Origin: Microlunatus soli
GTDB lineage: Bacteria; Actinomycetota; Actinomycetes; Propionibacteriales; Propionibacteriaceae
DNA: 64,000 bases
Assembly (NCBI RefSeq): GCF_900105385.1
Contig: NZ_LT629772.1
Location: forward strand, 4,588,001-4,652,000
Reading direction: 5' to 3'
Shown: positions 18,996-39,359 of the stretch, in pieces
Layout: each line of letters begins with the position of its first letter
Numbering within the stretch: the stretch's first letter is position 1
Translations under genes and position numbers: made by a program
Notes under the pieces: generated by a model
Seen by the model: the letters and a program-made list of their open reading frames with translations, nothing else
Database searches by the model: none
What the model was told of the DNA's origin: nothing

Positions 18996-19862
18996 TCAGC
19001 GGTTGATGCCGGTCAGGGTGATGCCGCGGATGAACTGCCGCTGCGCCACCAGATAGACCACGATCACCGGCAGTACGGCGATCGTCGCGCCGGCCATCAG
19101 CAGGGTGATCTGGCTGAAGTATTCGTTCTGGAACTGGGCCAGCGCGACCGGCAGGGTCTGCAGTTCACGGGAATTGATGTAGATCAACGGGCCGAACAGG
19201 TCGTTCCAGGACTCCAGAAACGTGAAGATCGCGATCGCCCCGAGCGCCGGTTTGGTCTCCGGCAACAAGATCCGCCAGAACACGGTGAAGGTACCGGCGC
19301 CGTCGACCCGCGCAGCATCCTCCAACTCCTGCGGCAGACTCATGAAGTACTGCCGCATCAGGAAGGTCGCGAAGACCGGGGTGAAGACCCGCGGCACCCA
19401 GAGCGGCAGTTGGGTGTCCACCCAACCGATCTGTTGGAAGATGATGTACTGCGGGATCAGGTAGGCGATGCCGGGGATCATCGCGGTCGCCAACAACACG
19501 ACGAACAGCACATTCCTGGCAGGGAAGCGGAGCCGTCCGAAGGCGAACCCGGCCAGCGACGACACCGCCAGGACGCCGACGACGTTGATCACCGCAAGTT
19601 TCACACTGTTGTAGAAGAACCGCGGGATGACGTCGAAGACCTGGGCGTAGTTGCTCCATTGCGGATGCAGTGGGAACAGTGTCGGTGGCGTGCTGAGGAC
19701 CTTGCCCTCCTCCTTCAACGAGGCGCCGATCATCCACAGCAGAGGCAGGATGAAAGTGAGTGCGAGGATGATCATCAACACGTACAGCACGATGTTCATG
19801 ATCTTGATGTTGCTGCCCCTGGCCCGTGTGCTCTTGGCCGGCATCTCAGTGGTCGTTATCAT
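18996..19862 (-). CDS. Carbohydrate ABC transporter permease (MalG/UgpE type)
   Basis: 288 residues with six predicted membrane helices, starting LYVLMIILALTFILPLLWMI. The cytoplasmic EAA loop is LPQELEDAARVDGAGTFTVF followed by WRILLPETKPAL, which contacts an ATPase. The C-terminus RQFIRGITLTGINR is the family's usual ending. The ATG at 19862 overlaps the preceding permease stop as ATGA. It is the last gene of a six-gene minus-strand operon (26126 to 18996). With the upstream permease and binding protein it forms a CUT1-type sugar importer. No ATPase gene is present, so a shared MsmK-like ATPase encoded elsewhere is expected. Confidence 0.92.
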   Translation of the reverse strand: MITTTEMPAKSTRARGSNIKIMNIVLYVLMIILALTFILPLLWMIGASLKEEGKVLSTPPTLFPLHPQWSNYAQVFDVIPRFFYNSVKLAVINVVGVLAVSSLAGFAFGRLRFPARNVLFVVLLATAMIPGIAYLIPQYIIFQQIGWVDTQLPLWVPRVFTPVFATFLMRQYFMSLPQELEDAARVDGAGTFTVFWRILLPETKPALGAIAIFTFLESWNDLFGPLIYINSRELQTLPVALAQFQNEYFSQITLLMAGATIAVLPVIVVYLVAQRQFIRGITLTGINR

Positions 19863-20806
19863 CCGTAGAACACCCACCGCTTCTGCAATCTCCATTGGAT
19901 CAGGGTGATGACGCCCAGGATGACGAACAGCACCCACGCCATCGCCGCCGCGTAGCCGTATCGGCCGAACGAGAAGGCCACCTGGTACAGGTAGTAGATG
20001 TAGACACTGGTGCTGTTTCCGGGCCCACCCTGGGTCATGATGTAGATCACTCCGAACACCTGGAACGAGGTGATGAACTGGGTGATCAGGACGAAGAAGA
20101 TGCTCGGCGTCATCAGTGGGATGGTGATCTTGAACAGCTGCCTGGTGGTGCTGGCGCCGTCGATGCTGGCCGATTCGTAGAGATCCTTCGGAATGCCCTG
20201 CAGGCCTGCCAGGAAGATCACCATCGGGTAGCCGGCACCCTGCCAGACACTGACCACGATCACCGAGATCAGCGCCAGGTTGGGGCTGGACAGCCAGGCC
20301 GGCCCGTCAATGCCGACCACCGAGAGCAGCCCGTTCAACACACCCTGGTCCGGCTTGTAGATCCAATACCAGATGTAGCCGATCGCCACGATATTGGTGA
20401 TGAACGGAGCGAAGTACGCTGCCCGGAACGCCGCGATGCCCGGCACCTTGCGGTTGCACAACAGCGCCAGCACAAAGGCCAGCACGGTGGTGGTCGGGAT
20501 CGCGCCGAGGGTGAACAGCAACGTGTTCCGCAGCGTCGACAGATACAGCGGGTCGTTGGTGAACATCTCGGTGAAGTTCTTCAGACCGATGAACTTCGGC
20601 GGGTTGATCCCGTTCCAGTCGGCCAACGACAGATACATCGAGACCAGGATCGGGATCAGCTGGAAGGCAATAATGCCGAGGAAGACCGGCGCTACGTAGA
20701 CCAGGCCCTCGTAGCGCCGCCAGCCCCCTCGACGGCGTCGGCGGACCGGCGGGTCACCCGGTGCGGACCCGGCCAGTCCACGGGCCTGGGAATGAACGGC
20801 GGTCAT
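19859..20806 (-). CDS. Carbohydrate ABC transporter permease (MalF/UgpA type)
   Basis: 315 residues with a basic N-terminus (VRRRRRGGWRRYEGLVYVAP) and six membrane helices. The EAA motif is KDLYESASIDGASTTRQLFK followed by ITIPLMTPSIFF, and the C-terminus RLQKRWVFYG is typical. It is the partner of the permease at 18996-19862, with which it overlaps by 4 bp, and follows the binding-protein gene by 12 bp. The complex would move a sugar or oligosaccharide across the membrane using an ATPase encoded elsewhere. Confidence 0.92.
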   Translation of the reverse strand: MTAVHSQARGLAGSAPGDPPVRRRRRGGWRRYEGLVYVAPVFLGIIAFQLIPILVSMYLSLADWNGINPPKFIGLKNFTEMFTNDPLYLSTLRNTLLFTLGAIPTTTVLAFVLALLCNRKVPGIAAFRAAYFAPFITNIVAIGYIWYWIYKPDQGVLNGLLSVVGIDGPAWLSSPNLALISVIVVSVWQGAGYPMVIFLAGLQGIPKDLYESASIDGASTTRQLFKITIPLMTPSIFFVLITQFITSFQVFGVIYIMTQGGPGNSTSVYIYYLYQVAFSFGRYGYAAAMAWVLFVILGVITLIQWRLQKRWVFYG

Positions 20807-20818
20807 CGGGAGATCCGT

Positions 20819-22135
20819 TCAGCCCTGCTGCTTCAGCGATTGATCAACCCGCGGTTTCGCCGTCTGCAGGACCTGTTCGGCGGTCTTGTTGCAGTTGTAG
20901 ACGTCGTCCAGCATCGGACGGTAGATCTGTCGGGCGCCGAGGGTGTTGTTGGTCTGATTGGGCAGCGTCGAATGCTTCACCGCTTCTGCGAAGAGCTCGA
21001 CGTGTGCCGGTGGCTTGGACAGGTACTGCAGCGCCCGATCGTCCATCGACAGCCACATGTTGCCTTCGACGAAGAACTTGCCGCCCTCCTGGCTGGTCAG
21101 GAACTTCAGCAACTCCCAGGCCGCGTCCGGGTTCTCCGCCTTGGTCGGGATCGCGTAGGTGATCACACTCGACTCGGTCTTCTGATCGGCCGGCCCGGCC
21201 GGCGGCGGCGCAACGTCGAAGGTGAAGTCCTTCACGTTCTCGGCCAGATAGGGCAGCGTGCTGAACTGGCTGAACATCATCGCCAACTTGCCCTGGGTGA
21301 ACAGTTGCAGGTCGGCATTGGTGCTCTGCAGGTCACCCCAGGCAGGTTGGACGTGATATTTGCAGGTCAGGTCGGTCGCCCATTGGATGGCCTCGGCGGC
21401 CTTCGGTTCGGACAGCGTGAAGCTGCTGCCGTCGCCGGCGAAGATGCCGGTCGGGCTACCGTTGTTGATCGCGAAGGTCTGCTCGAAACCGGTGTCCAGA
21501 TAGATCAGACCGCCGAACCGCTTGCCCTTGATCGTCAGCTTCTGGGCAGTGCTCCGGAAATCGTCCCAGGTCCAGCCCTCGGAGCTCCAGGTGGTCGGCG
21601 GCAGCTCGAGCCCGGCCTCCTTGAACGCGTCCACGTTGTAGTAGATCAGCCGGGGTGAGTGCGCGATCACCCAGGCGGTGTGCTTGCCGTCAGCCTGCTT
21701 GGGGAAGTCGTACAACTCCTGGGGGTAGTGGGAGGTGTCCAGCTTGTCCCGCTTGATGTAGGTGTTCAGATCCAGCAGGGCACCGGTGGCCGACATGCCC
21801 TTGACGTAGTCATCGTTGATCTTGATCAGATCCGGCGGTTTGCCGCCGGACAGCACGGTCCGGAACTTGGTGTCGTAGTCCGACGGCACCGGCTGCACCT
21901 CGACGGTGATCCCGCTCTTCTTCTGAAAGGCCTCGACGGCCTTGCCGAACGGGTTGTCCTGGACGTCGGAGTCGTTCAGGAAGGTCATCGACTTCGAGCC
22001 GCTGCCGCCGGAGGTGCTGCCACTGCAGCCGGCCAACATCGAAGCCGCAGCGGCGCCGCCGATGCCGACGAAGGCGCGTCTGCTGAGGGTGGACGTGTTG
22101 CTGGGCGAGGCGTTGAATCGCGTCGTTGCGTTCAT
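20819..22135 (-). CDS. Sugar ABC transporter substrate-binding lipoprotein
   Basis: 438 residues from the ATG at 22135, which has GAGGA seven bases upstream; the ATG at 22141 is too close to it. The N-terminus carries a twin-arginine signal (LSRRAFVGIGG) and lipobox (SMLAGC), so the protein is a Tat lipoprotein. The mature part is a family 1 solute-binding protein: ITVEVQPVPSDYDTKFRTVL, GGKPPDLIKINDDYV, and SVITYAIPTKAENPDAAWEL near the C-terminus. It feeds the two downstream permeases. The substrate is probably an oligosaccharide or oxidised sugar handled by the enzymes of the same operon; this is inferred from context only. Confidence 0.92.
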   Translation of the reverse strand: MNATTRFNASPSNTSTLSRRAFVGIGGAAAASMLAGCSGSTSGGSGSKSMTFLNDSDVQDNPFGKAVEAFQKKSGITVEVQPVPSDYDTKFRTVLSGGKPPDLIKINDDYVKGMSATGALLDLNTYIKRDKLDTSHYPQELYDFPKQADGKHTAWVIAHSPRLIYYNVDAFKEAGLELPPTTWSSEGWTWDDFRSTAQKLTIKGKRFGGLIYLDTGFEQTFAINNGSPTGIFAGDGSSFTLSEPKAAEAIQWATDLTCKYHVQPAWGDLQSTNADLQLFTQGKLAMMFSQFSTLPYLAENVKDFTFDVAPPPAGPADQKTESSVITYAIPTKAENPDAAWELLKFLTSQEGGKFFVEGNMWLSMDDRALQYLSKPPAHVELFAEAVKHSTLPNQTNNTLGARQIYRPMLDDVYNCNKTAEQVLQTAKPRVDQSLKQQG

Positions 22136-22160
22136 GATCATGTCCTCACATCTGACGGGC

Positions 22161-23666
22161 TCAAGGAGTTCGTTGGTTTGCCAGTTGACGGATCGCCTCG
22201 CCGGCACCGGAGAGGTTGTCCAGTCGCATCTCGGAGTACTTGCGGCTCAGGACGACGCCGTCGGCGCCGCCGTCGAAGGCGGCCAGGACGGCGTCCCGAA
22301 CGCCTTCGGGTGTGCAGTGGGTGAGAGCCGAGCCGCTGGTGTTGTCGGCGTTCACCCCGGACGGTGCCTCCGATCTGCGTCGTCGGTCCTGGGTCGCTGC
22401 CGGGACCTGCCCGACCGGGATATCGATGTCGATGCCCGGCAGGATCTTGCAGCCCGGCCGCACCCCGGCGACGGCGCGGGCGGTCTCCCGCCGGACGTAG
22501 TCGGCGCTGAAGCCGGTCTGCGGCAGGTCGCCATAGTCGGCCTCCTCCAGGCCGAGCAGCCGGAGCATCAGTGGGTAGACCTGTTCGGGATCGGCGTCGC
22601 CGAACAGGCTGTGGGAGATGCTGTCGATCCAGCTGTGGAAGCGGGGGCCGGCGCAGTTGTTGTACTCGACCACCTTGATGAAGTCGGACAACTCGCTGAG
22701 CTCGGCGTAGTCCTGGTCGGCCCGGTAGAACGGGCTGAAGGAGATCTCGTGGAAGACGTGCCAGCCGACCTGCACCGAACGCCGGCAGGCCTTGGCGACA
22801 CCGTAGATGTCGCGGTAGAGCTGGCGCTGGCTCTGGGTCCACAACGTCTGCCAGGCAAGGATCTCCGGGTAGTGCAGCAGGATCCGCCAGAACGTGACGA
22901 AAGCGCCGTCGGCCGGCCGGTCACCGGCGCCGACCCGGCTGTTCCAGTCCAACAGTTCGCGATAGCCGGCGCGTGCCCGGTCGACGTCGATCCCGGCCTC
23001 CTGCCCGCGATCTCGGCAGTATCGACAGAAGCAGGTCACCAGTTCGGGTGGGGTGTTGCTGCGTTGCAGCAGGATGTTCAGCGGCCCCGGACGCTCCGAG
23101 CACCAGGCCAGGCCGTCGATCGGATAACTCTTGACGTAGTCCTCGACGATGCCCAGATGCCAGTTGCGGTAGTCCGGATTGTTGAAACACGGTCGGGGCG
23201 CCGGCCGTCCCCAGACGTCGACCTCCAGGCACTGCGGAAAGTTCGGATAGTCCCGCAGGGCCTGCGCGTACGAGCTTTCCTCCATCCAGGCGTAGCTGGC
23301 GACACCGCGTTCGGCCGCCGTTGACACCACGTCGGACAGCAGATCGCCGTCGTAGTCCGGTGCCCGGCCGACCGGTCCGAGCCGGGTGGTGCGATAGAAC
23401 TCCGGATGGATGGTGGCGTAGTTGCCGCCGACCCAGTCGTGGTCATAGGACTGGACACCGTGGTCGGGCAGCGGGCGGCCGGGTACCTGCCGGCCGCCGG
23501 TGCCCCGGGTCCAGGTCGGAGTGGCCAGGAACAGCGCGTTCACCGCGCCACGTTCCTGCAGGATGTCCAGGACGGGTTCGACGCCCTCGTCGGCGAATGA
23601 GACGGCGCCGATCTGGATCGCGACGACCGGGTCCTGGGAGTCGGTCGTGGCGTCGGGGGTGGACAT
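22161..23666 (-). CDS. TIM-barrel hypothetical glycosyl hydrolase-like protein (501 aa)
   Basis: The start at 23666 is chosen for GAGGAG upstream. The sequence reads as a (beta/alpha)8 barrel: VVAIQIGAVSFADEGVEPVL, ALFLATPTW, WMEESSYAQALRDYPNFPQC, CFNNPDYRNWHLGIVEDYVK, and YPIDGLAWCSERPGPL. A cysteine motif CFCRYCRDRGQEAGID follows. It is homologous to the protein at 24813-26126, which shares NNPD, the CFCxxCR motif and DG(A/L)(D/S)G-type ends. Both resemble uncharacterised GHL/alpha-amylase-like proteins of sugar loci. There is no signal peptide, so it acts in the cytoplasm, presumably on the imported glycoside. The catalytic residues cannot be assigned with confidence. Confidence 0.65.
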   Translation of the reverse strand: MSTPDATTDSQDPVVAIQIGAVSFADEGVEPVLDILQERGAVNALFLATPTWTRGTGGRQVPGRPLPDHGVQSYDHDWVGGNYATIHPEFYRTTRLGPVGRAPDYDGDLLSDVVSTAAERGVASYAWMEESSYAQALRDYPNFPQCLEVDVWGRPAPRPCFNNPDYRNWHLGIVEDYVKSYPIDGLAWCSERPGPLNILLQRSNTPPELVTCFCRYCRDRGQEAGIDVDRARAGYRELLDWNSRVGAGDRPADGAFVTFWRILLHYPEILAWQTLWTQSQRQLYRDIYGVAKACRRSVQVGWHVFHEISFSPFYRADQDYAELSELSDFIKVVEYNNCAGPRFHSWIDSISHSLFGDADPEQVYPLMLRLLGLEEADYGDLPQTGFSADYVRRETARAVAGVRPGCKILPGIDIDIPVGQVPAATQDRRRRSEAPSGVNADNTSGSALTHCTPEGVRDAVLAAFDGGADGVVLSRKYSEMRLDNLSGAGEAIRQLANQRTP

Positions 23667-23688: not shown

Positions 23689-24816
23689 CTACTCGGTGAT
23701 GTGGTGAACGGCGACGGTGTGGGCGTCGATCCAGTCGGTGTCGTAATTGACGCCGAGGCCCGGGCCGTCGGGCAGCGAGACACAGCCGTCCGACGGATCG
23801 ATGGCCGACAATGTCTCGTTGTAGCCCTCGGCGTAGACCGGCGGCATGGCAGGATTGCCGAGCTCGGGATCGAGCAGTCCGAGCTCGTAGTAGTTGGTGT
23901 TGCGGATGGCCGCCATGCAGTGCCGTTGGGCCGGTCCGCCGGCGTGCACCTCGAGGTCGAGACCGAGGCTCTCCGCGGCGTGCGCGGATTTCATCACCCC
24001 GGTGATGCCCATGTCCAGTTCGGGATCGGCGCGCAGCAGGTCGGTGCCACCGTCGATCGCCAGGGCGGTGCGCAACTCCAACGGACGTACGAATTCGGTG
24101 ATCAACAACGGGGTCCGGATCCGCTCCCGGAGCAGCCGGTGTGCGGTCGGCGCGTCACCCCGTAACGGGTCCTCCCACCAGAAGGCGCCGACCTCGTCGC
24201 AGACTCGGCCCAGCCGTAGCGCATCGGCGACCGTGGCCAATCCCTTGCCCGGATCGGTCATGACGTCGGCCCGACCGGCGAGCCGCTCGCCGACCGCGCG
24301 CATGATCTCCATCTCGTCGCGAACCGAAGCGCCGCTGAAGCCGTGGAACTTGTAGGCCAGCGCACCATGATCAACACAGTGTTCGGCGTAGTCGGCGTAG
24401 GCCTGCGCCGAGCCGAGCGCTCCGGTGCCCTTGCGTCCGGAAACCGTGCTGACGTAGGCAGGTAGTCGGTCTCGTTGTCGGCCGAGCAGGGCCCAGATCG
24501 GCTGGCCCAGGGTGCGCCCGGCCAGGTCCCACAGCGCGATGTCCAGGGCGCCGTACCCGATCCGGTCGTTCTTGGCGTGCGCGCGGGCGGCGAGATTCCA
24601 CAGCCGTTCCCGATCCCGCGGATCCTGGCCGATCAGCAGTCGGGCCGCGGCGATGGTCTGCAGCACCGCCAGCGGTGGCGCACTCCACAGGGCGACGTAG
24701 CTGCCGGACTCGTCGTCGGAGGTGTCGATCCGGACAGCGAATTTGCGCGACTGCCGGTTGCTGCCGGGCGGCTGCCAGGCGAATTCGGTCAGCGTCACCG
24801 AGCGGATGATGCTCAT
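23689..24816 (-). CDS. Enolase-superfamily sugar-acid dehydratase-like protein (mandelate racemase/muconate lactonising group)
   Basis: 375 residues. The metal ligands of the superfamily are in place: Asp188 (VMTDPGKG), Glu215 (FWWEDPLRG) and Glu241 (LLITEF). On one side of the active site Lys156 is in AYKFHGF, so the motif is K-x-H, not the K-x-K of mandelate racemase. On the other side His291 (LEVHAGG) with an Asp at about 264 could form the His-Asp dyad. By family it removes a proton next to a carboxylate, typically dehydrating an acid sugar or epimerising it. Its ATG overlaps the upstream gene's stop as ATGA. Context points to an aldonic or uronic acid substrate; this is inference. Confidence 0.85.
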   Translation of the reverse strand: MSIIRSVTLTEFAWQPPGSNRQSRKFAVRIDTSDDESGSYVALWSAPPLAVLQTIAAARLLIGQDPRDRERLWNLAARAHAKNDRIGYGALDIALWDLAGRTLGQPIWALLGRQRDRLPAYVSTVSGRKGTGALGSAQAYADYAEHCVDHGALAYKFHGFSGASVRDEMEIMRAVGERLAGRADVMTDPGKGLATVADALRLGRVCDEVGAFWWEDPLRGDAPTAHRLLRERIRTPLLITEFVRPLELRTALAIDGGTDLLRADPELDMGITGVMKSAHAAESLGLDLEVHAGGPAQRHCMAAIRNTNYYELGLLDPELGNPAMPPVYAEGYNETLSAIDPSDGCVSLPDGPGLGVNYDTDWIDAHTVAVHHITE

Positions 24817-26126
24817 GGCCGGTGGATCCATTCGGACTCCAGGGCCTCCCACTCGACCATCCCGTCGCGCACCGCCCGGAGGCGTTCCATCGTGGCGCCG
24901 TCGTAGTGGCCCAGCGACAAGCCGTCGCAGCCGGAGTCGACCGCGGCCTTCACCGAGGCACGCAGGATCTCCGGGGTGGCGTTCGGACGCACACCGAGTG
25001 CGGCCAGCAGTGGCTTGTCATAGCCCAGCGCCCTCCGGGCCCGCATCAGCTTCGCTCGCTTGATCGCCACGCCCTCGTCGGTGCCGAGCTGGTCGGAGTA
25101 GTCGGACTCGCGGACCGAGTCGACGTGTTCGAACGCGGAGCTGAAGCTCAGACCGGCCAGCTCCGGCCGCGCCATGTAGGTGTTGTAACGGAAGTCGATG
25201 TCCGGCCGGGCATCGTGCGCGGCCGTGCTGACCAACGCGAACAGGTCGTCGATGCTGTGTCGGCGGAAGGAGAGCCAGGAGGCGAATGCCTCGTACTCCA
25301 GGAGCAGTTCGGCCTCGCTGTAGTTGCTCTCCCGCAGCAGTTGCGCCTCGTGGGCTTCTTCAAGATCACGTCCGCTGTGCACGATCGCCAGATGCCGAGC
25401 CTCGCGGAGGATCGCCTCCCAGTCCAGGCCGGCGGCGGTCGCCTTGTGGCGGCAGGCATCACAGAAGCAGCCGCCGGTCGCGGTGGCCATCAGATCACTC
25501 CAGGACGCCGTGGCCGCCCCGCCGACGGTGTTGCTGCGGGAGTAGCCGGAGCCGAACATCACCAGGCAGCTCTGGATGAAGTCGATATCGTGGTTGCCGA
25601 CCAGGTCGGTCACCAGGGCCGCCAGATACTCCTGAACATCGGGATTGTTCAAGCACGGCAGGGCCCGTTGGGCCTCGATCGCCTCGAAGGTGCCGACCAC
25701 ATTGCCGAACGCATCGCGCTGCAGCACGTCGGGATACTCCCGGCGGGCGACGTCAGCGTCGATCACGGTGTGCGAGATCTCGCAGCCGGTCTTCAGCCCG
25801 CGTTCCCGTGCCGGCTGGATCAAGGTGTCCAACCAGTCGGTGCCACGGAGGAAATCCCGATCCGAGGTCAGCGGTTTGATCCGACCGCGGTAACCGGCCG
25901 GATCAGGGGTCCAGTAGGCCCGGCTGTCCTCCGGCGTGTAGTACTTGCGGACCGGATTGTGGGGATAGAAACGGGCATGGAGCGGCCGCTTCTCCTTGTG
26001 CATCAGGCCGACCAGATACGCCGAGTTCACCCCGGCCAGGGCCTGCAGATTGTCCAGACATCGTTCGACGGTCTCGTCGGCCAGATCCCAGGCATACAGG
26101 CTGGCGGCAACCTCGGTCAGTGGCAT
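24813..26126 (-). CDS. TIM-barrel hypothetical glycosyl hydrolase-like protein (437 aa)
   Basis: First gene of the six-gene operon. The ATG at 26126 has AAGGGATC upstream; an in-frame ATG at 26159 is the alternative. The barrel-like order is TEVAASLYAWDLADETVERC, GVNSAYLVGLMHKEKRPLHA, HNPVRKYYTPEDSRAYWTPD, GLKTGCEISHTVIDADV, CLNNPDVQEYLAALVTDLVG and IDFIQSCLVM. These are followed by CFCDACRHKATAAGLDW and, near the end, VDSGCDGLSLGHYDG. It is a homologue of the protein at 22161-23666. No signal peptide is seen. I recognise the fold class but no characterised activity. Confidence 0.65.
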   Translation of the reverse strand: MPLTEVAASLYAWDLADETVERCLDNLQALAGVNSAYLVGLMHKEKRPLHARFYPHNPVRKYYTPEDSRAYWTPDPAGYRGRIKPLTSDRDFLRGTDWLDTLIQPARERGLKTGCEISHTVIDADVARREYPDVLQRDAFGNVVGTFEAIEAQRALPCLNNPDVQEYLAALVTDLVGNHDIDFIQSCLVMFGSGYSRSNTVGGAATASWSDLMATATGGCFCDACRHKATAAGLDWEAILREARHLAIVHSGRDLEEAHEAQLLRESNYSEAELLLEYEAFASWLSFRRHSIDDLFALVSTAAHDARPDIDFRYNTYMARPELAGLSFSSAFEHVDSVRESDYSDQLGTDEGVAIKRAKLMRARRALGYDKPLLAALGVRPNATPEILRASVKAAVDSGCDGLSLGHYDGATMERLRAVRDGMVEWEALESEWIHRP

Positions 26127-26280: not shown

Positions 26281-27174
26281 ATGTCTGAGACTGGACTCTC
26301 GATCGGATTCATCGGACTGGGGATCATGGGGCTGCCGATGGCGGCCAACCTGGTCCAAGGCGGACACCGGGTCCGCGGCTTCGCACGATCCGAACAGACG
26401 CGGGCGAAGGCGGCCGAGCAGGGGATCGAGGCGGTCGGGTCGACAGCGGAGGCCGTCGACGGGGCGGACGTCGTGATCACGGTGCTCCCCGACTCCCCGG
26501 ACGTCGTCGAGGTCGGGCTGGGTGAGGGCGGCGTGCTGGGCCACACCGCCGCCGGCGTGCTCTGGATCGACATGAGCACCATCGACCCGGACACCGCCCG
26601 TGACCTGCACGCCCGATCGACCGCGCAGGGCGTCCGGTTCCTCGACGCGCCGGTCAGCGGTGGTGAGGCCGGGGCGATCGAGGGCCAGTTGTCGATCATG
26701 GTCGGCGGCGAGGCCGAGGTACTGGAATCGGCTCGCGGGCTGCTCGACCTGCTCGGGACGACGATCGTGCACGTCGGTCCTGCCGGCAGCGGCCAGGTGG
26801 TCAAGGCGGCCAACCAGATCGTCGTCGCCGGCAACATCCAAATACTGGCCGAGGCCCTGGTCTTCCTGCGTGGGCAGGACGCCGACCTGGAGCGAGCCCT
26901 GGAGGTGATCGGCGGCGGCCTGGCCGGCAGCACCGTGCTGCAACGTAAACGGGAGAGTCTGTTGGCGGGCGACTTCCGGCCGGGTTTCCGGGCTCGCCTG
27001 CATCACAAGGATCTCGGGATCGTGCAACGTTCGGCTCGGGCCGCCGGGGTCGGCCTGCCGGCCACCGCACTGGTCACTCAGTTGATGCAGACCCTGGTCG
27101 CCCGCGGTGACGGTGACCTTGATCATTCCGCGCTGTACGCCCAATGTGCGGAGCTGAACGCGGTGAAACCATGA
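26281..27174 (+). CDS. 2-hydroxy-3-oxopropionate (tartronate semialdehyde) reductase-like beta-hydroxyacid dehydrogenase
   Basis: 297 residues. The N-terminal Rossmann motif IGFIGLGIMGLPMAANLVQG is followed by the beta-hydroxyacid dehydrogenase signatures FLDAPVSGGEAGAIEGQLSI and GPAGSGQVVKAANQIVVAGN, whose Lys is catalytic. KDLGIVQRSARAAGVGLPAT completes the pattern of GarR/GlxR enzymes, which reduce tartronate semialdehyde to D-glycerate with NAD(P)H. The start at 26281 has AAGGGG upstream. It is the first gene of a three-gene operon divergent from the ABC/GHL operon, and its stop overlaps the next start (ATGA). Related enzymes act on 3-hydroxyisobutyrate, so substrate identity is probable only. 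Confidence 0.85.
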   Translation: MSETGLSIGFIGLGIMGLPMAANLVQGGHRVRGFARSEQTRAKAAEQGIEAVGSTAEAVDGADVVITVLPDSPDVVEVGLGEGGVLGHTAAGVLWIDMSTIDPDTARDLHARSTAQGVRFLDAPVSGGEAGAIEGQLSIMVGGEAEVLESARGLLDLLGTTIVHVGPAGSGQVVKAANQIVVAGNIQILAEALVFLRGQDADLERALEVIGGGLAGSTVLQRKRESLLAGDFRPGFRARLHHKDLGIVQRSARAAGVGLPATALVTQLMQTLVARGDGDLDHSALYAQCAELNAVKP

Positions 27175-30849: not shown

Positions 30850-30906
30850 CGTCCTCACTCCCTGTCCATCATCCGCCCGATCGCGCTCCTGCTGTGCGCA
30901 ATGTAC

Positions 30907-31794: not shown

Positions 31795-33933
31795 ATGACG
31801 TCGGAGTCGATGACCCTCACCGCGACCGAACAACAACCGCACAGCAGCGACCGGGACTGGTTCCTCGGGGCCTCCCGCTGGACCCAGTTGACCTTCGTGG
31901 AGAACGATCCGCAGACCTTCGATCAGGACTTCTGGATCGACGTGATGCAGCGATCGGGATCCAATGCGCTCTGCCTGAGTGCCGGCGGCTACATCGCCTT
32001 CTACCCGACCCGGATCCCGCTGCACTACCGCAGTGCGGAGCTGGCCGATGGTGACCCGTTCGGGGCGATGGTCGAGGCCGCCCGCAAGCTGGACATGCGG
32101 GTGATGGCCCGGGTCGATCCGCATGCCATCCACGATGACGCGGCCACGGCGCGGCCGGACTGGCTCGCGCTCGGCCAGGATGGCGAACCGTTACCGCACT
32201 GGTCCTTCCCCGACATCTGGTTGACCTGCCCGTTCGGCTCCTATCACCGGGACTTCATCACCGAGGTCGCCCGGGAGATCGTCGGTGACTATCAGGTGGA
32301 TGCGATCTTCGCCAACCGCTGGGAGGGGCACGGCGGAGTCTCCTACAGCGAGGCCGCTCGGCGTGGCTTCTTCGACGCTACCGGGCTGCAGTTGCCCCGC
32401 CAGGACGACCCCTCCGACCCGTCGTGGCCGGCCTACGGTGCCTGGCGAAGCCGTCGGTTGAGCGAGTTGGTGGTGCTCTGGGACGACGCCGTTCGGGCGG
32501 TCCGGCCGGCGGCCCGGTTCATACCGAATCGGGGGAGTCTGCTCACTCGCGATCTTGATCGGCAGATCGTCGACGGTCGCTATCCGATGTTCTTCATCGA
32601 CAAGCAAGGTCGCTCCGGTCGGGAGCCGATCTGGACGGCCGGGCGGATCGGAAAACGCAGCCGGGGAATGTTCCCCGAGCGTCCGGTCAGCCTGATCACC
32701 TCGGTCGGGCCGGAGAGTCACGAGTATCGCTGGAAGGACTCGGTCGCAGCCCCGGCCGAGCTGCGGAGCTGGATCGCCGACGGTTTCGCCCAGGGCGCCT
32801 CTCCGTGGTTCACCAAGTTCAACGCCCGGATCCGTGACGACCGGTGGGTGCAGCCGATCGTCGACGCGTTCGGTCTGCACAAGATCATCGACGATGCCGT
32901 CGGGGGACTGCCGTTCACCGAGCGGGTGGCGATCTTCGACAACCTGCGGATCGATCCGGCCCGCCCGTTCGGGCCGAAGGTCGGCGACGATCCGAACGAG
33001 GACGGCTTCTACCAGGCACTGGTCGAAGCTCGGGTCCCGTTCGGCTACCTCGCGGATCAGGAGTTGACCGCCGCGCGGTTGGCCGAGGTCGATGTCCTGG
33101 TGCTGCCCGACGCTCGGGCGATGAGCGAGGAACACTGCCGGGTCATCGAGGCCTACGTCGCCGCCGGTGGCAGCGTGGTGGCTGCCCATCGCTCCAGCCT
33201 GCTCGACGAGGAAGGGCGGCAGCGGGCGGACTACGGTCTGGGTCGGCTGCTCGGCGTCAGCCATCGCGGCGGTCCGCGTGGGCCGGTCAAGAACAATTAC
33301 ATCGCGATCACCGACCGACATCCGGTCGCCGCGGGTTTCGACGGGGCCGAGCGGATTGTCGGCGGCACCCACTTGTTCGCGGTCGACGCCGCTCCGGACG
33401 CGAGCGTGCCGTTCCGCTTCGTCCCCGACTTCCCTGATCTGCCGATGGAGGAGGTCTATCCACGGCAGGAGGGGCAGGTCGGTGATCCGGCGGTCGTCTG
33501 CCGCGAACAACCCGGCGGGGGTCGAACGGCGTACGTGGCCTTCAATGTCGGCGAAGTCTTCTGGGATGCGCTGCAATCCGATCACGGACAGCTGATCGCC
33601 AATCTCGTCGGATGGGCCCGCGGCTCCGCTCCGGCAGTTCGGGTGACCGGGGCCGGCCTGGTCGATCTCTCGGTCCGGGCCGACGAAGCGACCACCGCGG
33701 TGACGCTGGTCAATCTGAACAACCCGATGGCGATGCGCGGCCAACAACGGTCGGTGCTGCCGCTGCCTCCCCAGGAACTCCTTCTGGTCGCGCCGCCGGG
33801 CTGCTCCGGCGCCGACGCGCGGCTGGTTGTCGCCGGGCAGCACGTCCCTGCCGAACGACTGCCGGACGGTCGGTTCCGGGTGTCGATCCCGTCCGTCGGC
33901 GTGATCGAGACGGTGATCGTCCACTGGGGCTGA
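31795..33933 (+). CDS. GHL6-type alpha-amylase-like protein with beta-galactosidase trimerisation-like domain (712 aa)
   Basis: Homologue of the protein at 27171-29168 with the same domain order. The N-terminal barrel has WTQLTFVENDPQTFDQDFWI, SNALCLSAGGYIAFYPTRIP, LDMRVMARVDPHAIHDDAAT, then YQVDAIFANRWEGHGGVSYS. Residues of about 400-600 resemble the GH42 trimerisation domain (VDVLVLPDARAMSEEHCRVI, GGSVVAAHRSSLLDEEGR). A short beta domain ends the protein. There is no signal peptide. It is followed 112 bp later by a binding-protein gene, so enzyme and importer are probably linked. It has no ribosome site. Glycosidase activity is inferred from fold alone. Confidence 0.7.
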   Translation: MTSESMTLTATEQQPHSSDRDWFLGASRWTQLTFVENDPQTFDQDFWIDVMQRSGSNALCLSAGGYIAFYPTRIPLHYRSAELADGDPFGAMVEAARKLDMRVMARVDPHAIHDDAATARPDWLALGQDGEPLPHWSFPDIWLTCPFGSYHRDFITEVAREIVGDYQVDAIFANRWEGHGGVSYSEAARRGFFDATGLQLPRQDDPSDPSWPAYGAWRSRRLSELVVLWDDAVRAVRPAARFIPNRGSLLTRDLDRQIVDGRYPMFFIDKQGRSGREPIWTAGRIGKRSRGMFPERPVSLITSVGPESHEYRWKDSVAAPAELRSWIADGFAQGASPWFTKFNARIRDDRWVQPIVDAFGLHKIIDDAVGGLPFTERVAIFDNLRIDPARPFGPKVGDDPNEDGFYQALVEARVPFGYLADQELTAARLAEVDVLVLPDARAMSEEHCRVIEAYVAAGGSVVAAHRSSLLDEEGRQRADYGLGRLLGVSHRGGPRGPVKNNYIAITDRHPVAAGFDGAERIVGGTHLFAVDAAPDASVPFRFVPDFPDLPMEEVYPRQEGQVGDPAVVCREQPGGGRTAYVAFNVGEVFWDALQSDHGQLIANLVGWARGSAPAVRVTGAGLVDLSVRADEATTAVTLVNLNNPMAMRGQQRSVLPLPPQELLLVAPPGCSGADARLVVAGQHVPAERLPDGRFRVSIPSVGVIETVIVHWG

Positions 33934-34045: not shown

Positions 34046-35374
34046 ATGAGTGGAGTGAGTCGAAGGGGCCTACTCAAACTGACCGCCGCCGGTGTCGCCG
34101 GCACAGCCTTGGGCGGTCTCGGACTGACCGGCTGCAGCGGTGTCGGAGGCTCGGTCGCAACGGGCGGCGGCAAGACGACACTGCGCTACGGCTTCTGGGG
34201 CAACAGCACCCGGCAGCAGCACTACACCAAGGCGCTCAAGGATTTCGGTCAGTCGCACAGCGACATCTCGGTGCAGACCGAGTTCGCCGAGTACGACGCC
34301 TTCCAGGAGCGGATGACCACCCAGATGGCCGCCAAGAGCGTCCCGGACGTTTTCTGGATCGCCTCGCCGCAGGTCCTGACCTACGCCAAGAACCACCTGT
34401 ACCACGATCTCTCCGGGCTCGACCAGCTCAAGCTGTCCGACTACAGCTCGGAGGAACTGGACAGTTTCAAGCTGGACGGCAAGCTGAACACCATCCCGTT
34501 CGGGATCTATGTGCCCGTGATGCGCTACAACGCGAGCTTTGCCGAGCAGGACGGCGTCACCATCCCCGAGGACGGCGACAAGGGCTACAGCTGGGACGGG
34601 TTCGCGGAGTTCCTGACCGACTACAGCAAGCACAACAAGCACGGTCGCAAGGGGCTGCCGTACGTGCCCGATGCAGACCTGCCGTTCGAGGGCTGGTTGC
34701 GTCAGCGCGGGGAGCAGCTCTGGACCGCCGATGGCCAGCCGGGCTTCAGTGCCGACGGGCTGGCGGCCTGGTTCGATTGGTGGCAGAAACTCCGCAAGTC
34801 CGACGCGGTGTTGACCCGCAGCGAGCAGGAGGGGATGGGGCCGGACTGGGAGATCTTCGGCAAGAAGGTGCTGGCCAACCTGGACAATTCCAACCACATC
34901 GTCGGCGAGGCGCCGGTCTTCCCGGAGAGCACCTTCAAGCTGCGGCACTTGCCCGCCGACGCCGATGCTGCCGACGGGTACCACTATTTCTACTACCCGC
35001 GGATGGCGTTGTACGCCGGCACCGACAAGGCCAAGATCGAGGCGGCGGCTACCTTGATCGACTACAACGTCAACCAGACGACGATGCTGAAGACCGTCGG
35101 ACTTGATCTTGGTGCGCCGCCCAACGCGCGGGTGGCCGAAGAGGCGAAAGCCTTTGCCAACAAGGACGAGCAGGAGATGCTCCGGGTCGTGGCGGAGGAC
35201 CGCGCGCAGAAACGCAACCCGCGGTACGAATCCCCGGCCGGCGCCAACAACTGGCGGACGATCATGACCCGGATCGCCGAGGCGATCGATCTGGGCAACA
35301 CCACCACGACCAAGGGTGCCCGGCAGATGATCAGCGAGATCAAGACTGCGATCGATCGGGCGAGCAATCAGTAG
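34046..35374 (+). CDS. Sugar ABC transporter substrate-binding lipoprotein (second system)
   Basis: 442 residues; GGGAG precedes the ATG. A twin-arginine signal (VSRRGLLKLTAAG) and lipobox (GLTGC) make it a Tat lipoprotein. The mature protein is a family 1 solute-binding protein: LRYGFWGNSTRQQHYTKALK, FQERMTTQMAAKSVPDVFWI, YNASFAEQDGVTIPEDGDKG, and SWDGFAEFLTDYSKH. Sequence differences from the first binding protein (20819-22135) suggest different ligands. Two permease genes follow directly. The context suggests import of a glycoside for the flanking GHL6-type and alpha-glucuronidase-like proteins. Confidence 0.92.
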   Translation: MSGVSRRGLLKLTAAGVAGTALGGLGLTGCSGVGGSVATGGGKTTLRYGFWGNSTRQQHYTKALKDFGQSHSDISVQTEFAEYDAFQERMTTQMAAKSVPDVFWIASPQVLTYAKNHLYHDLSGLDQLKLSDYSSEELDSFKLDGKLNTIPFGIYVPVMRYNASFAEQDGVTIPEDGDKGYSWDGFAEFLTDYSKHNKHGRKGLPYVPDADLPFEGWLRQRGEQLWTADGQPGFSADGLAAWFDWWQKLRKSDAVLTRSEQEGMGPDWEIFGKKVLANLDNSNHIVGEAPVFPESTFKLRHLPADADAADGYHYFYYPRMALYAGTDKAKIEAAATLIDYNVNQTTMLKTVGLDLGAPPNARVAEEAKAFANKDEQEMLRVVAEDRAQKRNPRYESPAGANNWRTIMTRIAEAIDLGNTTTTKGARQMISEIKTAIDRASNQ

Positions 35375-35408
35375 CCGGGTCGCCGAGCAGCGGGGAGGTG
35401 GCAGCCGG

Positions 35409-36314
35409 ATGGCAACGACCACCACGTCGCGCGGCGGCTACCTGCGACGCCAGGGCAAGGTGGCCCACGTCTTCCTGATCCCCTGGCTCGCCGGCCTTGC
35501 CCTGGTCACGGCGATCCCGCTGCTCGCCTCGCTCTACCTCGCCTTCACCAATTACAACGTGCTGTCCAGTCCGAAATTCATCGGGCTGGCCAACTTCACC
35601 CGGATGTTCCATGATCATCGGTTCTGGCAGTCGGTGAAGGTGACGTCGATCTACGTCGCGGTGTCGGTTCCGCTGCAGCTGGCCTTCGCGCTGCTGCTGG
35701 CCCTGATCCTGGATCGCGGGCTGCGCGGGCTGACGATCTACCGCAGCGCCTTCTACCTTCCGTCCCTGCTCGGTGGCAGTGTCGCCGTGGCGGTGCTGTG
35801 GCGGGAGGTCTTCGGCGACTCCGGCCTGATCAACGACCTGCTCGGACTCGTGGGCATCAACGGGACCAGCTGGCTGCAGAATCCGTCCACCGCGCTGATC
35901 ACGTTGATCATCCTGCACGTCTGGGCGTTCGGGTCACCGATGGTGATCTTCCTGGCCGGTCTGCGGCAGATTCCCGAGGACCTGTACGAGGCGGCCCGGA
36001 TGGACGGCGCCTCCAAGCTGCGACAGTTCCGCAACGTGACCCTGCCGCTGCTCACCCCGATCGTCTTCTTCAACCTGATCCTGCAGACGATCGGCGCCTT
36101 CCAGTCCTTCACCCAGGCCCATGTCGTCAGTGGCGGCACTGGCGGCCCGGTCGACTCCACCCTGTTCTACACGCTCTACATCTACCAACAGGGATTCGTC
36201 AGCTTCGACATGGGGTACGCCTCCGCGCTGGCCTGGGTCCTGTTGATCTTCATCGGGATCGTCACCGCTGTCCACTTCACGTTGTCCAAGTACTGGGTCT
36301 TCTACGGAGACTGA
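35409..36314 (+). CDS. Carbohydrate ABC transporter permease (MalF/UgpA type, second system)
   Basis: 301 residues with six predicted membrane helices and a strong GGGGAGGTGG ribosome site. The start KVAHVFLIPWLAGLALVTAI and the EAA motif EDLYEAARMDGASKLRQFRN followed by VTLPLLTPIVFF are typical. The C-terminus SKYWVFYGD matches the family. It lies 34 bp after the binding-protein gene and 2 bp before the second permease. It needs an external ATPase. Confidence 0.92.
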   Translation: MATTTTSRGGYLRRQGKVAHVFLIPWLAGLALVTAIPLLASLYLAFTNYNVLSSPKFIGLANFTRMFHDHRFWQSVKVTSIYVAVSVPLQLAFALLLALILDRGLRGLTIYRSAFYLPSLLGGSVAVAVLWREVFGDSGLINDLLGLVGINGTSWLQNPSTALITLIILHVWAFGSPMVIFLAGLRQIPEDLYEAARMDGASKLRQFRNVTLPLLTPIVFFNLILQTIGAFQSFTQAHVVSGGTGGPVDSTLFYTLYIYQQGFVSFDMGYASALAWVLLIFIGIVTAVHFTLSKYWVFYGD

Positions 36315-36316
36315 TC

Positions 36317-37216
36317 ATGGTCGATCAACTTGTCCGCCCCGAGGCCGTCGTCCGGGCCCACCCGACGACGCCGTCCCGCTCGCGCCGCCGCGCTCGCCTG
36401 CGCGCGGTCGGCCAACACAGCGGGCTGATCATCTTCGCGCTGATCATGATCTACCCGTTGCTCTGGATGCTGGTCAGTTCGTTCAAGCCGGACAATCAGA
36501 TCCTCGCCGATCCGAGCCCGATTCCGCGCGAGTTCACGCTGGAGAACTTCATCCAGGGCTGGAACGTCCTCGGTCAGCCGTTCATCGTCTTCTTCATCAA
36601 CTCCCTGATCGTCACCGTCGGAGCGATCCTGGGCAACCTGTTCTCCTGCTCGCTGACTGCGTACGCGCTGGCTCGGTTGGAGTTCCGGATGCGCAAGATC
36701 TATGTCGGGATCGTCCTGGTGACGGTGATGCTGCCGATCCACGTACTGGTGATCCCGCAGTACATCTTCTTCTCCCAGCTGCATCTGGTGAACACCTACT
36801 TCCCGCTGGTGGTCCCGAAAGTCCTGGGCACGGACTCGTTCTTCGTGTTCCTGATGATCCAGTTCATCCGCGGTATCCCGCGCGAGTTGGATCAGGCGGC
36901 GATGATCGACGGCTCCGGCCCGTTCCGGACGTTCCTCTACGTGATCCTGCCGTTGATGCGCCCCGCACTGCTGACCACGACGATCTTCACCTTCATCTGG
37001 ACCTGGAACGACTTCTTCGTGCCGCTGATCTACCTCACCTCGTCGCAGTCGTTCACGGTGCCGGTCGCGCTGAACTCGATGGTCGATTCCCAGTCCCAGG
37101 GTGGCACCGGGATGCTGCTGGCGATGTCGGTCGTCTCGTTGGTGCCGATCATGCTGTTCTTCGTCTTCGCCCAGCGGCATCTGATCCGTGGCATCGCCAC
37201 CACCGGACTCAAATGA
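36317..37216 (+). CDS. Carbohydrate ABC transporter permease (MalG/UgpE type, second system)
   Basis: 299 residues from the ATG at 36317, two bases after the previous stop. It has an Arg-rich N-terminus, six membrane segments (IIFALIMIYPLLWMLVSSFK first), the EAA loop IPRELDQAAMIDGSGPFRTF followed by LYVILPLMRPALL, and the usual C-terminal HLIRGIATTGLK. It completes the second importer. Again no ATPase gene follows; the next gene encodes an alpha-glucuronidase-like protein. Confidence 0.92.
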   Translation: MVDQLVRPEAVVRAHPTTPSRSRRRARLRAVGQHSGLIIFALIMIYPLLWMLVSSFKPDNQILADPSPIPREFTLENFIQGWNVLGQPFIVFFINSLIVTVGAILGNLFSCSLTAYALARLEFRMRKIYVGIVLVTVMLPIHVLVIPQYIFFSQLHLVNTYFPLVVPKVLGTDSFFVFLMIQFIRGIPRELDQAAMIDGSGPFRTFLYVILPLMRPALLTTTIFTFIWTWNDFFVPLIYLTSSQSFTVPVALNSMVDSQSQGGTGMLLAMSVVSLVPIMLFFVFAQRHLIRGIATTGLK

Positions 37217-37241
37217 TCACTACCAGGATTGCCTTCCGATA

Positions 37242-39359
37242 ATGTCGGAGTCGATGTACGACACAGTGCAGTTCGATGCCGTGACCGATGAACCGGCGAT
37301 CGCGTTCGCCACCGACCGGTTACGGGATGCGACAATCCGGTCCGGACTCGGCTGGGGGACTGGTGGCCGGCAGCCCTATCGGGTCGGTCTCACCGTTGAG
37401 GCCGACGCCGACGCCGATCGGCAGGGTTATCGGATCGACCGCACGGAGGGCGGTTGCACGGTGATCGCGGGCGGCCGGGCCGGAGCCCTCTACGGGTTGC
37501 TCCGCATCGCCGAGACGGTGCGGGCGGACGGACCTGCGGCGATCGCCGACGAGCAGAAGACGCCGTATCTGCCGTACCGCGGGATCAAGTTCAATGCACC
37601 GCTGGATGCACGGACCCCGGGCTACAGCGACGACGGCGACTCCGCGGCCGCTGCGGTCAGCGACCTGTGGTCCTTCGACTTCTGGCGATCACTGCTGGAC
37701 CGGATGGCGACCGAACGGTACAACCTCCTGTCCTTGTGGAATCTGCATCCCTTCCCGTCGATGGTACGGGTGCCGGAGTACCCGGACGTCGCGCTCGACG
37801 ACGTGATGGTGTCCGATGTCCGTCCGGTCGCCCACACCACCGGTGTCGGCATGGTCGACAAGCGGACCCGGGAGAGTCTGCGCACGGTCGCCACGATCGG
37901 CATCGACGACAAGATCGACTTCTGGCGGCGGGTGATGGCCCACGCCCACGATCGCTGCATCGAGATCATGATCTTCACCTGGAACGTGTTCAGCTACGGC
38001 ACCGACCACACTTCGTACGGGATCGACGACCGGATGGACAATCCGGTCACGATCGACTACACCCGGGCCAGCGTCCGCGCACTGTTGCGGACCTATCCAC
38101 TGTTGGCCGGGATCGGTATCACCGCCGGCGAACACATGGACCGCTCCGAGCATGGTGCACGCCGCAACCAGGCGTGGCTCCGGTCGACCTACGGCGCGGC
38201 GCTGCAGGACATCGCCGCCGAGCAACCCGATCGTCGGTTGCGGCTGATCCACCGCAGCCATTGGTCCGACCTGCAGGAGGTCTCGTCGGTCTTCGACGAT
38301 GTCGGGTTGCCCGCCGAGTTCAGCTACAAGTACTCCTCGGCCCACCTGCACACGACGACCGAACCGCCGTACATCCACCGGGACGGATTCCTTGATCAAC
38401 TACCGGCCGGGGCGCGGTTCTGGCTGACCGTCCGCGACGACGACTACTACCTGCTTCGGCCCGGTGATCCGGCATTCGTCCGGGATTATCTGCGGCGGCT
38501 GCCGTCCCACGCCCGGCTGAACGGCTTCTACCTCGGTCCGGACGGTTACACCATCGGCCGTGAGCAGCTGCGGCTGGCCCCGACCGATGACCGCGAGCTG
38601 GTGTTCGACCGGCAGTGGTATCTGTTCGCCATGTTCGGCCAGCTCGGATTCGATCCGCACCTGACCGACGGCTATTTCCGAGACCGGCTGCGGGTGCGTT
38701 ATCCGGCAGCGGACCCGGCCACACTGGACGACGCCTGGCGAGCGGCGTCGATGATCATCCCGGCCGTCAACACATTCCACTTCGAGGGCAACAAGTTCGA
38801 CCTCGACTGGTATCCGGAAGCCTGTCTCAGCCATCCGCGACAACGCCACGGATTCCATACCGTGCATGATTTCATTGCCGCTACGCCGCTACCGGGCAGT
38901 GGCCTGCTCGGCATCGTCGAGGACTGTCGGACCGGCGGCGCCGACGGGATCCGACCCGGTGAGGTGGCCGACCGGCTGGACCGAGCGGCGACCTCGGCCA
39001 CCGCTGCTGCCGAACGACTTCGCGCCGCGGCCGATCCCGAGCTGATCGAGTTGCTGGACGACATCGTCGACCTGGCCGAACTCGGCTGCTACTACGCCGA
39101 CAAGATCCGCGGAGCCGCGGCAACCCATCGGGTGATCGCCGGAACGGCGTTGGACGAGGACGCTCGGCAGCAGGCCGTCACGCATCTGGAGAATGCGTCC
39201 GACCACTGGGCCCGCTACGCCGGTCGCGTGCACCGGCGGTATCGACCGCAACGGTTGAGCCGACTGGGCGGCCGGATGGTGGATCTCCGCGACCTCCAGC
39301 ACGACGTCGACTACGACATCACCCTGGCACGTGCGGTGGGTTACGACGAGCACCGGTGA
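37242..39359 (+). CDS. Alpha-glucuronidase-like (GH67N-type) intracellular glycosidase
   Basis: About 705 residues; start at 37242 (ATG at 37254 also possible), no strong ribosome site. The N-terminal domain (GYRIDRTEGGCTVIAGGRAG, then ALYGLLRIAETV) is the alpha/beta domain seen before the barrel in GH67, GH115 and GH20 enzymes. It is followed by PYLPYRGIKFNAPLDARTPG. The barrel region contains YNLLSLWNLHPFPSMVRVPE, EIMIFTWNVFSYGTD, LLAGIGITAGEHMDRSEHGA and WLTVRDDDYYLL. The Glu in ITAGEHM is a candidate acid. No signal peptide, so it acts on imported substrate. It is the last gene of the second transport operon. The assignment rests on domain order; uronic acid specificity is unproven. Confidence 0.6.
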   Translation: MSESMYDTVQFDAVTDEPAIAFATDRLRDATIRSGLGWGTGGRQPYRVGLTVEADADADRQGYRIDRTEGGCTVIAGGRAGALYGLLRIAETVRADGPAAIADEQKTPYLPYRGIKFNAPLDARTPGYSDDGDSAAAAVSDLWSFDFWRSLLDRMATERYNLLSLWNLHPFPSMVRVPEYPDVALDDVMVSDVRPVAHTTGVGMVDKRTRESLRTVATIGIDDKIDFWRRVMAHAHDRCIEIMIFTWNVFSYGTDHTSYGIDDRMDNPVTIDYTRASVRALLRTYPLLAGIGITAGEHMDRSEHGARRNQAWLRSTYGAALQDIAAEQPDRRLRLIHRSHWSDLQEVSSVFDDVGLPAEFSYKYSSAHLHTTTEPPYIHRDGFLDQLPAGARFWLTVRDDDYYLLRPGDPAFVRDYLRRLPSHARLNGFYLGPDGYTIGREQLRLAPTDDRELVFDRQWYLFAMFGQLGFDPHLTDGYFRDRLRVRYPAADPATLDDAWRAASMIIPAVNTFHFEGNKFDLDWYPEACLSHPRQRHGFHTVHDFIAATPLPGSGLLGIVEDCRTGGADGIRPGEVADRLDRAATSATAAAERLRAAADPELIELLDDIVDLAELGCYYADKIRGAAATHRVIAGTALDEDARQQAVTHLENASDHWARYAGRVHRRYRPQRLSRLGGRMVDLRDLQHDVDYDITLARAVGYDEHR

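Follow-up and report, generated by a model that had tools for sequence, protein, structure and literature searches.

What does a bacterium do with a set of genes in which four hydrolase-like barrel proteins stand among two importers and several enzymes for acid sugars and three-carbon acids? The question is raised by a cluster of 16 genes in the 6.73 Mb single-contig genome of Microlunatus soli, at positions 18996-39359 of a 64,000-nucleotide stretch (genome positions 4588001-4652000), which we call the window and whose numbering is used below. A first-pass annotation had proposed a glycoside-use system here. The linkage it implies is supported: the barrels are associated with importers and with acid-sugar/C3 enzymes more closely than chance would allow. 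A glycoside-use set of an uncharacterised kind is likely, but as two joinable modules and not as one set. We give close to an even chance to the reading that the region joins two glycoside-use modules feeding a route of two- and three-carbon (C2/C3) acids to glycerate. No published description of a pathway with this gene set was found in the literature searched, as the annotation had surmised.

Two modules in relatives

Related loci were obtained by scanning genome_contigs with the alignment of the barrel proteins GHLa and GHLb and a single peptide pattern around Cys158. This gave a selected set of 71 loci, with which the window proteins were compared by tblastn. Outside Microlunatus, the cluster genes are split into two modules that occur apart; in Microlunatus they are sometimes joined.

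Module B comprises GHLb (24813..26126, minus strand), a predicted TIM-barrel paralogue of GHLa; ENO (23689..24816, minus), a mandelate-racemase-type enzyme of the enolase superfamily with a K-x-H motif; HYI (30907..31728, minus), a hydroxypyruvate-isomerase-like TIM barrel; TSR (26281..27174, plus), a tartronate-semialdehyde-reductase-like protein; a GntR/FCD regulator (30145..30858, minus); and an importer. In Pseudactinotalea suaedae (L041) and Actinotalea caeni (L042), GntR, TSR and HYI lie on one strand and SBP2-GHLb-permA2-permB2-ENO on the other. P. suaedae also has 2HADH, a D-2-hydroxyacid dehydrogenase (29165..30160, plus, in the window). In A. caeni, module B stands alone, between flanks that appear unrelated by eye; with one importer, GHLb, ENO, HYI, TSR and a regulator, this locus makes a small test case. 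In Kribbella rubisoli (L044), module B is without TSR and has GntR at the opposite end, and Actinopolymorpha (L040) and M. parietis (L043) retain GntR, HYI, GHLb and ENO.

Module A comprises GHLa (22161..23666, minus), a predicted TIM-barrel protein, and a GHL6 protein, usually with a set of solute-binding protein and permeases. The window has two GHL6 proteins, GHL6a (27171..29168, plus) and GHL6b (31795..33933, plus). Of the 71 loci, 28 have module A; they belong to Kribbella, Rhizobiales, Microlunatus, Actinopolymorpha, a Thermomicrobiales bin and Acidobacteriota, whose two loci (L059, L083) show no importer. Overall, the barrel families are seen in records of Actinomycetota, Pseudomonadota, Acidobacteriota, Chloroflexota and Bacteroidota. 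The conservation of the gene blocks, on which the first-pass annotation had let its proposal depend, holds for the modules, which recur across phyla, but not for the full set. All 16 genes together were found in no other genome examined, the closest approach being a single locus with eight of them (M. speluncae, G007 and M. parietis L095).

Could the window then hold two unconnected systems as neighbors, module A serving one glycoside and module B a different acid or glycoside, the two sharing a neighborhood and perhaps an ATPase? Such an arrangement is favored by the occurrence of module B alone in A. caeni and of module A alone in Kribbella (L064) and its relatives, and by the two separate places that the modules occupy in M. 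parietis (L043, L095). The M. parietis L095 locus has TSR, GHL6a, GHLa, importer 1, GntR and a GHL6b-like gene. Other arrangements speak against it. M. speluncae (G004) and G007 hold GHL6a, GHLb, ENO, GHLa, SBP1, permA1, permB1 and GntR in one row. In M. endophyticus, TSR-HYI-GHLb-ENO is in line with a GHL6b-like gene, in Mucilaginibacter (L046) GHLb adjoins GHLa, and GHL6a keeps TSR as module B does. We consider two separate systems possible but doubtful. The M. soli genome itself has a second, diverged locus (L024, about 1380000-1394000) with GHLa (65%), a GHL6b-like gene, relatives of SBP1, permA1 and permB1, and a lactonase-type amidohydrolase gene.

A GHLb-like family of about 390 residues (Rhizobium, Aureimonas, Alicyclobacillus and haloarchaeal plasmids) has other neighbors and was not counted as GHLb. 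It matches 124 plasmid records, 108 of them from Rhizobium; in the five of these 124 whose neighborhoods were inspected (L110, L111, L114, L115, L116), the neighbors are alanine racemase, amidohydrolase, RidA, creatininase or enolase genes. Plasmid records were also inspected for GHL6a (6 of 19 matching), ENO (3 of 85) and the last gene of the cluster, GALU (1 of 3).

C2/C3 acid genes beside the barrels

To what metabolism do the barrels lead? For comparison, three genomes were sampled at even spacing in 60 stretches of 20 kb (1.2 Mb in total), which were searched with thresholds identical to those used for the GHL stretches. In these controls, TSR, HYI, ENO, malate synthase, two types of glycerate kinase and GlcF were each found in 0/60, and 2HADH and GlcD in 1/60 each. 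The seven GHLb loci above 300 bits, the window included, are quite different: ENO is present in all seven, HYI in six, TSR in three, 2HADH and glycerate kinase in two each (the kinase in L040, where it is Pfam-confirmed, and L041), and GlcD and GlcF in one each. Nine loci have GHL6a as the best GHL6 match, and there TSR is found six times, 2HADH four times, ENO and GlcD twice each, and GlcF and a MOFRL kinase once each; the GHL6a frame of L126 is broken in pieces. The window and L122 were left out of the nine, both scoring higher with GHL6b; with them TSR is in 8/11. At GHLa loci (n = 67), malate synthase occurs 12 times, 2HADH three times, TSR and ENO twice each, and HYI, GlcD, GlcF and a kinase once each. 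The malate-synthase loci, 11 from Kribbella and one from Actinopolymorpha, are not independent, and some 9 kb separate the gene from GHLa in them.

None of the 60 controls has the reductase, isomerase, enolase, malate synthase or kinases, which makes a route of C2/C3 hydroxyacids the probable acid end. Support for the barrels feeding this route is good in the case of module B and of the GHL6a loci. For module A, the Kribbella malate synthase, mainly, together with a single Parabacteroides locus, suggests the same.

Individual neighborhoods show how these genes are arranged. In the actinomycete L130, 2HADH and GntR enclose TSR-GHL6a; the window has these four genes too, but there 2HADH is on the opposite side. 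The Rhizobium acidisoli locus combines GntR, TSR, an importer and GHL6a, and has 2HADH and an enolase gene further along. In Ensifer, TSR, GlcDEF-like genes, a MOFRL kinase (244 bits with the glycerate 2-kinase model, whose cut-off is 550), malic enzyme and GHL6a are found. M. endophyticus has an SBP_bac_5 importer, the GHL6b-like gene and a gene for a GH42 protein ahead of its TSR, HYI, GHLb and ENO, and malic enzyme, GlcDEF-like genes and an HbpS-like gene after them. M. endophyticus and Ensifer each have a GlcF homologue next to GHL genes; GlcE homologues occur in M. endophyticus and, weakly (31%), in Ensifer, and GlcD homologues beside GHL6a in L123 and L131 and also in M. endophyticus.

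In Rhizobiales, an aldo/keto reductase and a lactonase-type amidohydrolase follow GHLa; amidohydrolases were found in 0/60 controls, aldo/keto reductase in 2/60 with weak scores (81-85 bits), and GH42 in 1/60. This pair would suit oxidation of a neutral sugar after its release. Thus the oxidised sugar unit of the first-pass annotation fares unevenly: acid-sugar and C3 enzymes are tied to the barrels, but that the unit itself is oxidised is something we infer.

Two further neighborhoods bring in another explanation, namely, that the barrels hydrolyse compounds like glucosyl- or mannosyl-glycerate and so yield glycerate directly, which is imported or phosphorylated. Parabacteroides has SusC/D-like genes followed by GHLa, a second GHLa, glycerate kinase and a GntP-family permease. 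In Sphingobium, a GHL6b-like gene, TSR, HYI, two kinase-like genes and an annotated lactate permease accompany a GHL6a with a Tat-like start. The kinase matches in L040 and L041 point the same way. However, glycosyl-glycerate use offers no role for ENO, malate synthase or malic enzyme, nor for the amidohydrolases and aldo/keto reductases found in relatives, and makes TSR and HYI superfluous unless the product is L-glycerate. We find it rather improbable. An idea of hydroxyproline-glycoprotein use, drawn from neighbors in Granulicella, was dropped as it came from a single locus.

The barrel proteins

The two homologous pairs that the first-pass annotation had recognised are borne out: GHLa and GHLb are 33% identical over query residues 17-249 (E 2.5e-6), and GHL6a and GHL6b 23% identical in alignment A2. 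Neither Pfam nor NCBIfam recognises GHLa, and GHLb reaches GHL6 only below threshold (20.7 vs 35); the Pfam Glyco_hydro_42 model matches neither protein. GHL6a matches PF14871 (GHL6) with 101 bits and is related by profile to GH151 and GH42. GHL6b matches it with 54 bits and also has a Glyco_hydro_42M domain. AlphaFold2 models of GHLb (pLDDT 85) and GHLa (pLDDT 83) match structures of Cwp19, PgaB, GH151 (6tvk) and GH42 at a TM of about 0.5 (Foldseek). The predicted fold is a glycosidase-like barrel, from which no family assignment follows.

Residue conservation was counted in open reading frames from a selected part of the loci. In GHLa, Cys158, Cys210 and Cys212 are each kept in 48/48 aligned sequences, the count for Cys158 being partly built in by the peptide pattern that fetched the loci, and Cys215 in 45/48. 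E189, at the end of strand 4, is kept in 45/48 and is Ala in three Rhizobiales (L058, L062, L069). GHLb keeps its four Cys in 8/8. The four-Cys pattern may resemble the zinc site of GH42 enzymes such as A4 beta-galactosidase.

The GHL6 profile has its best match in 6tvk, a GH151 alpha-L-fucosidase, over three segments (136.6 bits, E 7.7e-39). Is the cluster then an ordinary fucosidase operon of GH151 type? Parts of the published record lend this some color: Mfuc3, which carries PF14871 (PMC4723247), is a fucosidase with a GHL6 domain placed in GH151, where the catalytic residues are described as nucleophile D154 and acid/base E235 (PMC10154630), at the end of strand 4 and at strand 6, respectively. 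At the nucleophile position, however, GHL6a has N156, and Asn is found there in 9/9 GHL6a and 27/27 GHL6b sequences, D183 of the 6tvk chain being taken as D154 plus a 29-residue tag, an offset that is our own assumption. This Asn led us to reject an ordinary GH151 fucosidase, which we hold to be highly improbable. An acidic residue is invariant further on (E243 in 9/9 GHL6a, D269 in 27/27 GHL6b) and is a candidate for the acid/base, although the HMM alignment does not reach GH151 E235; an Asp at D93/D108 is invariant in GHL6a/GHL6b. By sequence comparison, none of the barrels GHLa, GHLb and GHL6 can be placed in a named family, GHL6 being a distant relative of GH151. The window GHL6a has lost two of the four Cys that its relatives keep (8/9). 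Both GHL6a and GHL6b of the window have lost Cys of the CxCxxC motif kept by most aligned relatives.

Where do the barrels act? N-termini were judged by eye, since a computed hydropathy number failed to separate exported from cytoplasmic proteins and was given no weight. The hydrolase-like proteins of the window have no signal-peptide-like start, which fits the earlier suggestion that intact glycosides are imported and opened inside. This is not general, however. Tat- or Sec-like starts are present in GHLb of two Bacteroidota bins, in GHLa of Mucilaginibacter, Parabacteroides (where one of the two copies is without one) and Granulicella, and in both GHL6 proteins of Sphingobium. Such starts in several Gram-negative copies suggest action on an external compound, and would weigh against an intracellular aldolase role for the whole family. 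The Bacteroidota GHLb locus L045 also has two GH92 genes.

The metabolic enzymes

In ENO, K156-x-H158, D188, E215, E241, D264 and H291 are invariant (10/10), which we take to be the general bases (K-x-K/H), the His-Asp dyad and the three acidic metal ligands of the mandelate racemase subgroup. ENO matches Pfam MR_MLE and no NCBIfam equivalog above cut-off, the best being TalGalacDh (76 bits vs 500). Among solved structures, ENO is closest to 1rvk/4hcd/4mmw (234 bits, with 124 for the one after), presumably an aldarate dehydratase of Agrobacterium; a literature search with the codes 1rvk and 4hcd found no relevant paper. TSR, with Pfam NAD_binding_2/NAD_binding_11 domains, scores 332.1 bits with TIGR01505 (cut-off 340.75). 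As this is close to the cut-off, tartronate-semialdehyde reductase is its likeliest predicted activity. TSR is the sole close copy in the genome, the next paralogue being 33% identical. HYI (Pfam AP_endonuc_2) has 227.7 bits with TIGR03234, whose cut-off is 353.45, and 2HADH matches 2-Hacid_dh_C.

GALU (37242..39359, plus) has a weak tie to the rest of the cluster. It matches by profile BPa0997 (6hze), an alpha-galacturonidase-like protein, with E 1.9e-32 over chain residues 35-346 and 432-671; no paper naming BPa0997 was found in the literature searched. GALU reaches only 56 bits with the alpha-galacturonidase model NF049878, whose cut-off is 1300. The "alpha-glucuronidase-like" label given to GALU earlier is only partly right.

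These enzymes invite comparison with an aldarate (glucarate/galactarate) pathway like that of E. coli gar/gud, with ENO as the aldarate dehydratase, TSR as a GarR and the barrels as accessories. The nearest relatives of ENO, the TIGR01505 score of TSR, a KdgD above cut-off in the genome and the likeness of GALU to an alpha-galacturonidase-like protein are all in keeping with it. However, although ENO shares the K-x-H pair with 1rvk, its D264 aligns with a Gly there, so that aldarate activity cannot be transferred to ENO. Moreover, the 16 genes include no gar/gud-type transporter or aldolase, ENO is accompanied by GHLb in 7/7 GHLb loci, and GlcDEF, malate synthase and malic enzyme are left unexplained. 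We judge an aldarate pathway quite unlikely.

Proposed pathway

The reading that we prefer, in which joined modules feed a C2/C3 route, can be laid out as follows. One or more small glycosides would enter the cell through the two importers, and there GHLa, GHLb, GHL6a, GHL6b and perhaps GALU may release a sugar or sugar acid. Among specific sugars, L-galactose, D-arabinose and apiose came into consideration as mere candidates. The acid would take an oxidative, non-phosphorylative route in which ENO dehydrates it to a 2-keto-3-deoxy acid, to be cleaved by an aldolase encoded elsewhere. The C2/C3 hydroxyacids, namely glycolate/glyoxylate, hydroxypyruvate and tartronate semialdehyde, may be gathered by the GlcDEF-like proteins, 2HADH, HYI and TSR into D-glycerate, the substrate of a kinase whose gene would lie elsewhere. 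The GntR protein is the likely switch. A glycerate kinase is indeed encoded elsewhere in the genome, as are aldolase-type families (13 PF00701 and 4 PF03328 matches, with the one KdgD).

Several observations weigh against this pathway. No aldolase was recognised among the window genes scanned with Pfam. In the genome, no glyoxylate carboligase is above cut-off, the best match having 357 bits against 711, so that an origin of tartronate semialdehyde from this enzyme, which had been considered, is not supported. The scores of TSR, HYI and the GlcDEF-like proteins are all under their NCBIfam cut-offs. GHLb has no carboxylate at strand-4 positions 187-190 in 8/8 sequences, whereas GHLa has Glu there. 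Among GHLa loci, 49/67 are without any C2/C3 gene, some of these stretches being short contigs, and ENO is in just 2/67. The controls are all Actinomycetota, whereas several GHL6a loci are from Alphaproteobacteria, and the malate-synthase and kinase queries were picked after these genes had been sighted beside GHL genes. Finally, GALU-like proteins are found in 9/93 test stretches and in 2/60 controls. Because of the latter, and because GALU itself at threshold matches the window and L120 only, its place in the system is doubtful.

A bolder form of the proposal makes GHLa, GHLb and the GHL6 clade carbohydrate-active families outside the present classification. They would act on a class of glycosides that has so far gone unrecognised as a carbon source, and the acid part of these would pass through ENO to glycerate. 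GHLb, which keeps the four Cys and is without the Glu of GHLa, may then carry out an elimination or C-C cleavage, supplying the missing aldolase step. We think this unlikely. Apart from it, the analysis ties unassigned barrel families to importers and to a likely end point at glycerate/glyoxylate, and discovery of a ligand would give an activity to families at present labelled hypothetical.

Layout and surroundings of the cluster

All 16 genes of the first-pass annotation are present, in four strand blocks: minus 18996-26159 (six genes), plus 26245-30160 (three), minus 30145-31728 (two) and plus 31777-39359 (five). Gene starts were taken from open reading frames. Importer 1 consists of the solute-binding lipoprotein SBP1 (20819..22135, minus; Pfam SBP_bac_1, with a Tat/lipobox-like N-terminus by eye), the permease permA1 (19859..20806, minus; recognised by Pfam) and the inner-membrane permease permB1 (18996..19937, minus; Pfam BPD_transp_1). 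Importer 2 consists of the solute-binding lipoprotein SBP2 (34046..35374, plus; SBP_bac_8), permA2 (35409..36314, plus; Pfam permease) and permB2 (36305..37216, plus). The start of permB2 is uncertain within the open frame 35798-37216, and its identity comes from clustering with the Pfam-confirmed permB1 and from tblastn to relatives, not from Pfam. No ABC ATPase domain was found in the window frames scanned with Pfam, in agreement with the earlier description of two importers without an ATPase. The regulator is recognised by its Pfam GntR and FCD domains.

The boundary drawn for the cluster proves too tight, as GlcDEF-like genes follow directly downstream (39762-43999, all minus). The three adjacent subunits all score below NCBIfam cut-offs: a GlcF-like iron-sulphur subunit (39762..41147; 327 bits vs 333), a GlcE-like FAD subunit (41178..42506; 181 vs 284) and a GlcD-like FAD subunit (42437..43999; 533 vs 897). 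Adjoining them at 44118-47926 are genes for an SDR, a triosephosphate-isomerase-like protein, a xylose-isomerase-like barrel and an FGGY kinase in a row, which we take to resemble a catabolic set of tetritol or erythrulose type. Upstream of the cluster there is a GH76-type gene (12371-14287). The window also has, at 53039-59569, an open frame of 2176 codons, opposed by a long antisense frame and lying in DNA of high GC and strong AT skew.

Comparison with known systems

Of known enzymes, the GH151 fucosidases (ALfuk2, 6tvk; Mfuc3) are like GHL6a and GHL6b by profile over the catalytic, middle and C-terminal parts, but have an Asp nucleophile where all 36 aligned GHL6 sequences have Asn. GH42 beta-galactosidases (1kwg and others) are like GHLa and GHLb in model fold, and GHL6b shares with them Glyco_hydro_42M; however, the Glyco_hydro_42 catalytic domain is unmatched by all four barrels and the TM is only about 0.5. 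BPa0997 is like GALU over two segments, with NF049878 far below cut-off. The Lac161 beta-galactosidases from a soil cosmid were also new hydrolases beside an enolase-superfamily gene, although they are of other kinds in the description consulted, ORF10 being a DUF377 five-bladed propeller (PMC5342196).

Among pathways, the nearest parallels are in E. coli. There, gar/gud are the genes of aldarate use, and gcl-hyi-glxR-glxK those of glyoxylate use. The cluster is like these in having an enolase-superfamily enzyme, TSR and an HYI-like protein, as well as glycerate kinase in some relatives. Unlike them, it is without a recognised GarL-type aldolase, and its genome without a Gcl above cut-off; instead, it has hydrolase-like barrels and ABC importers.

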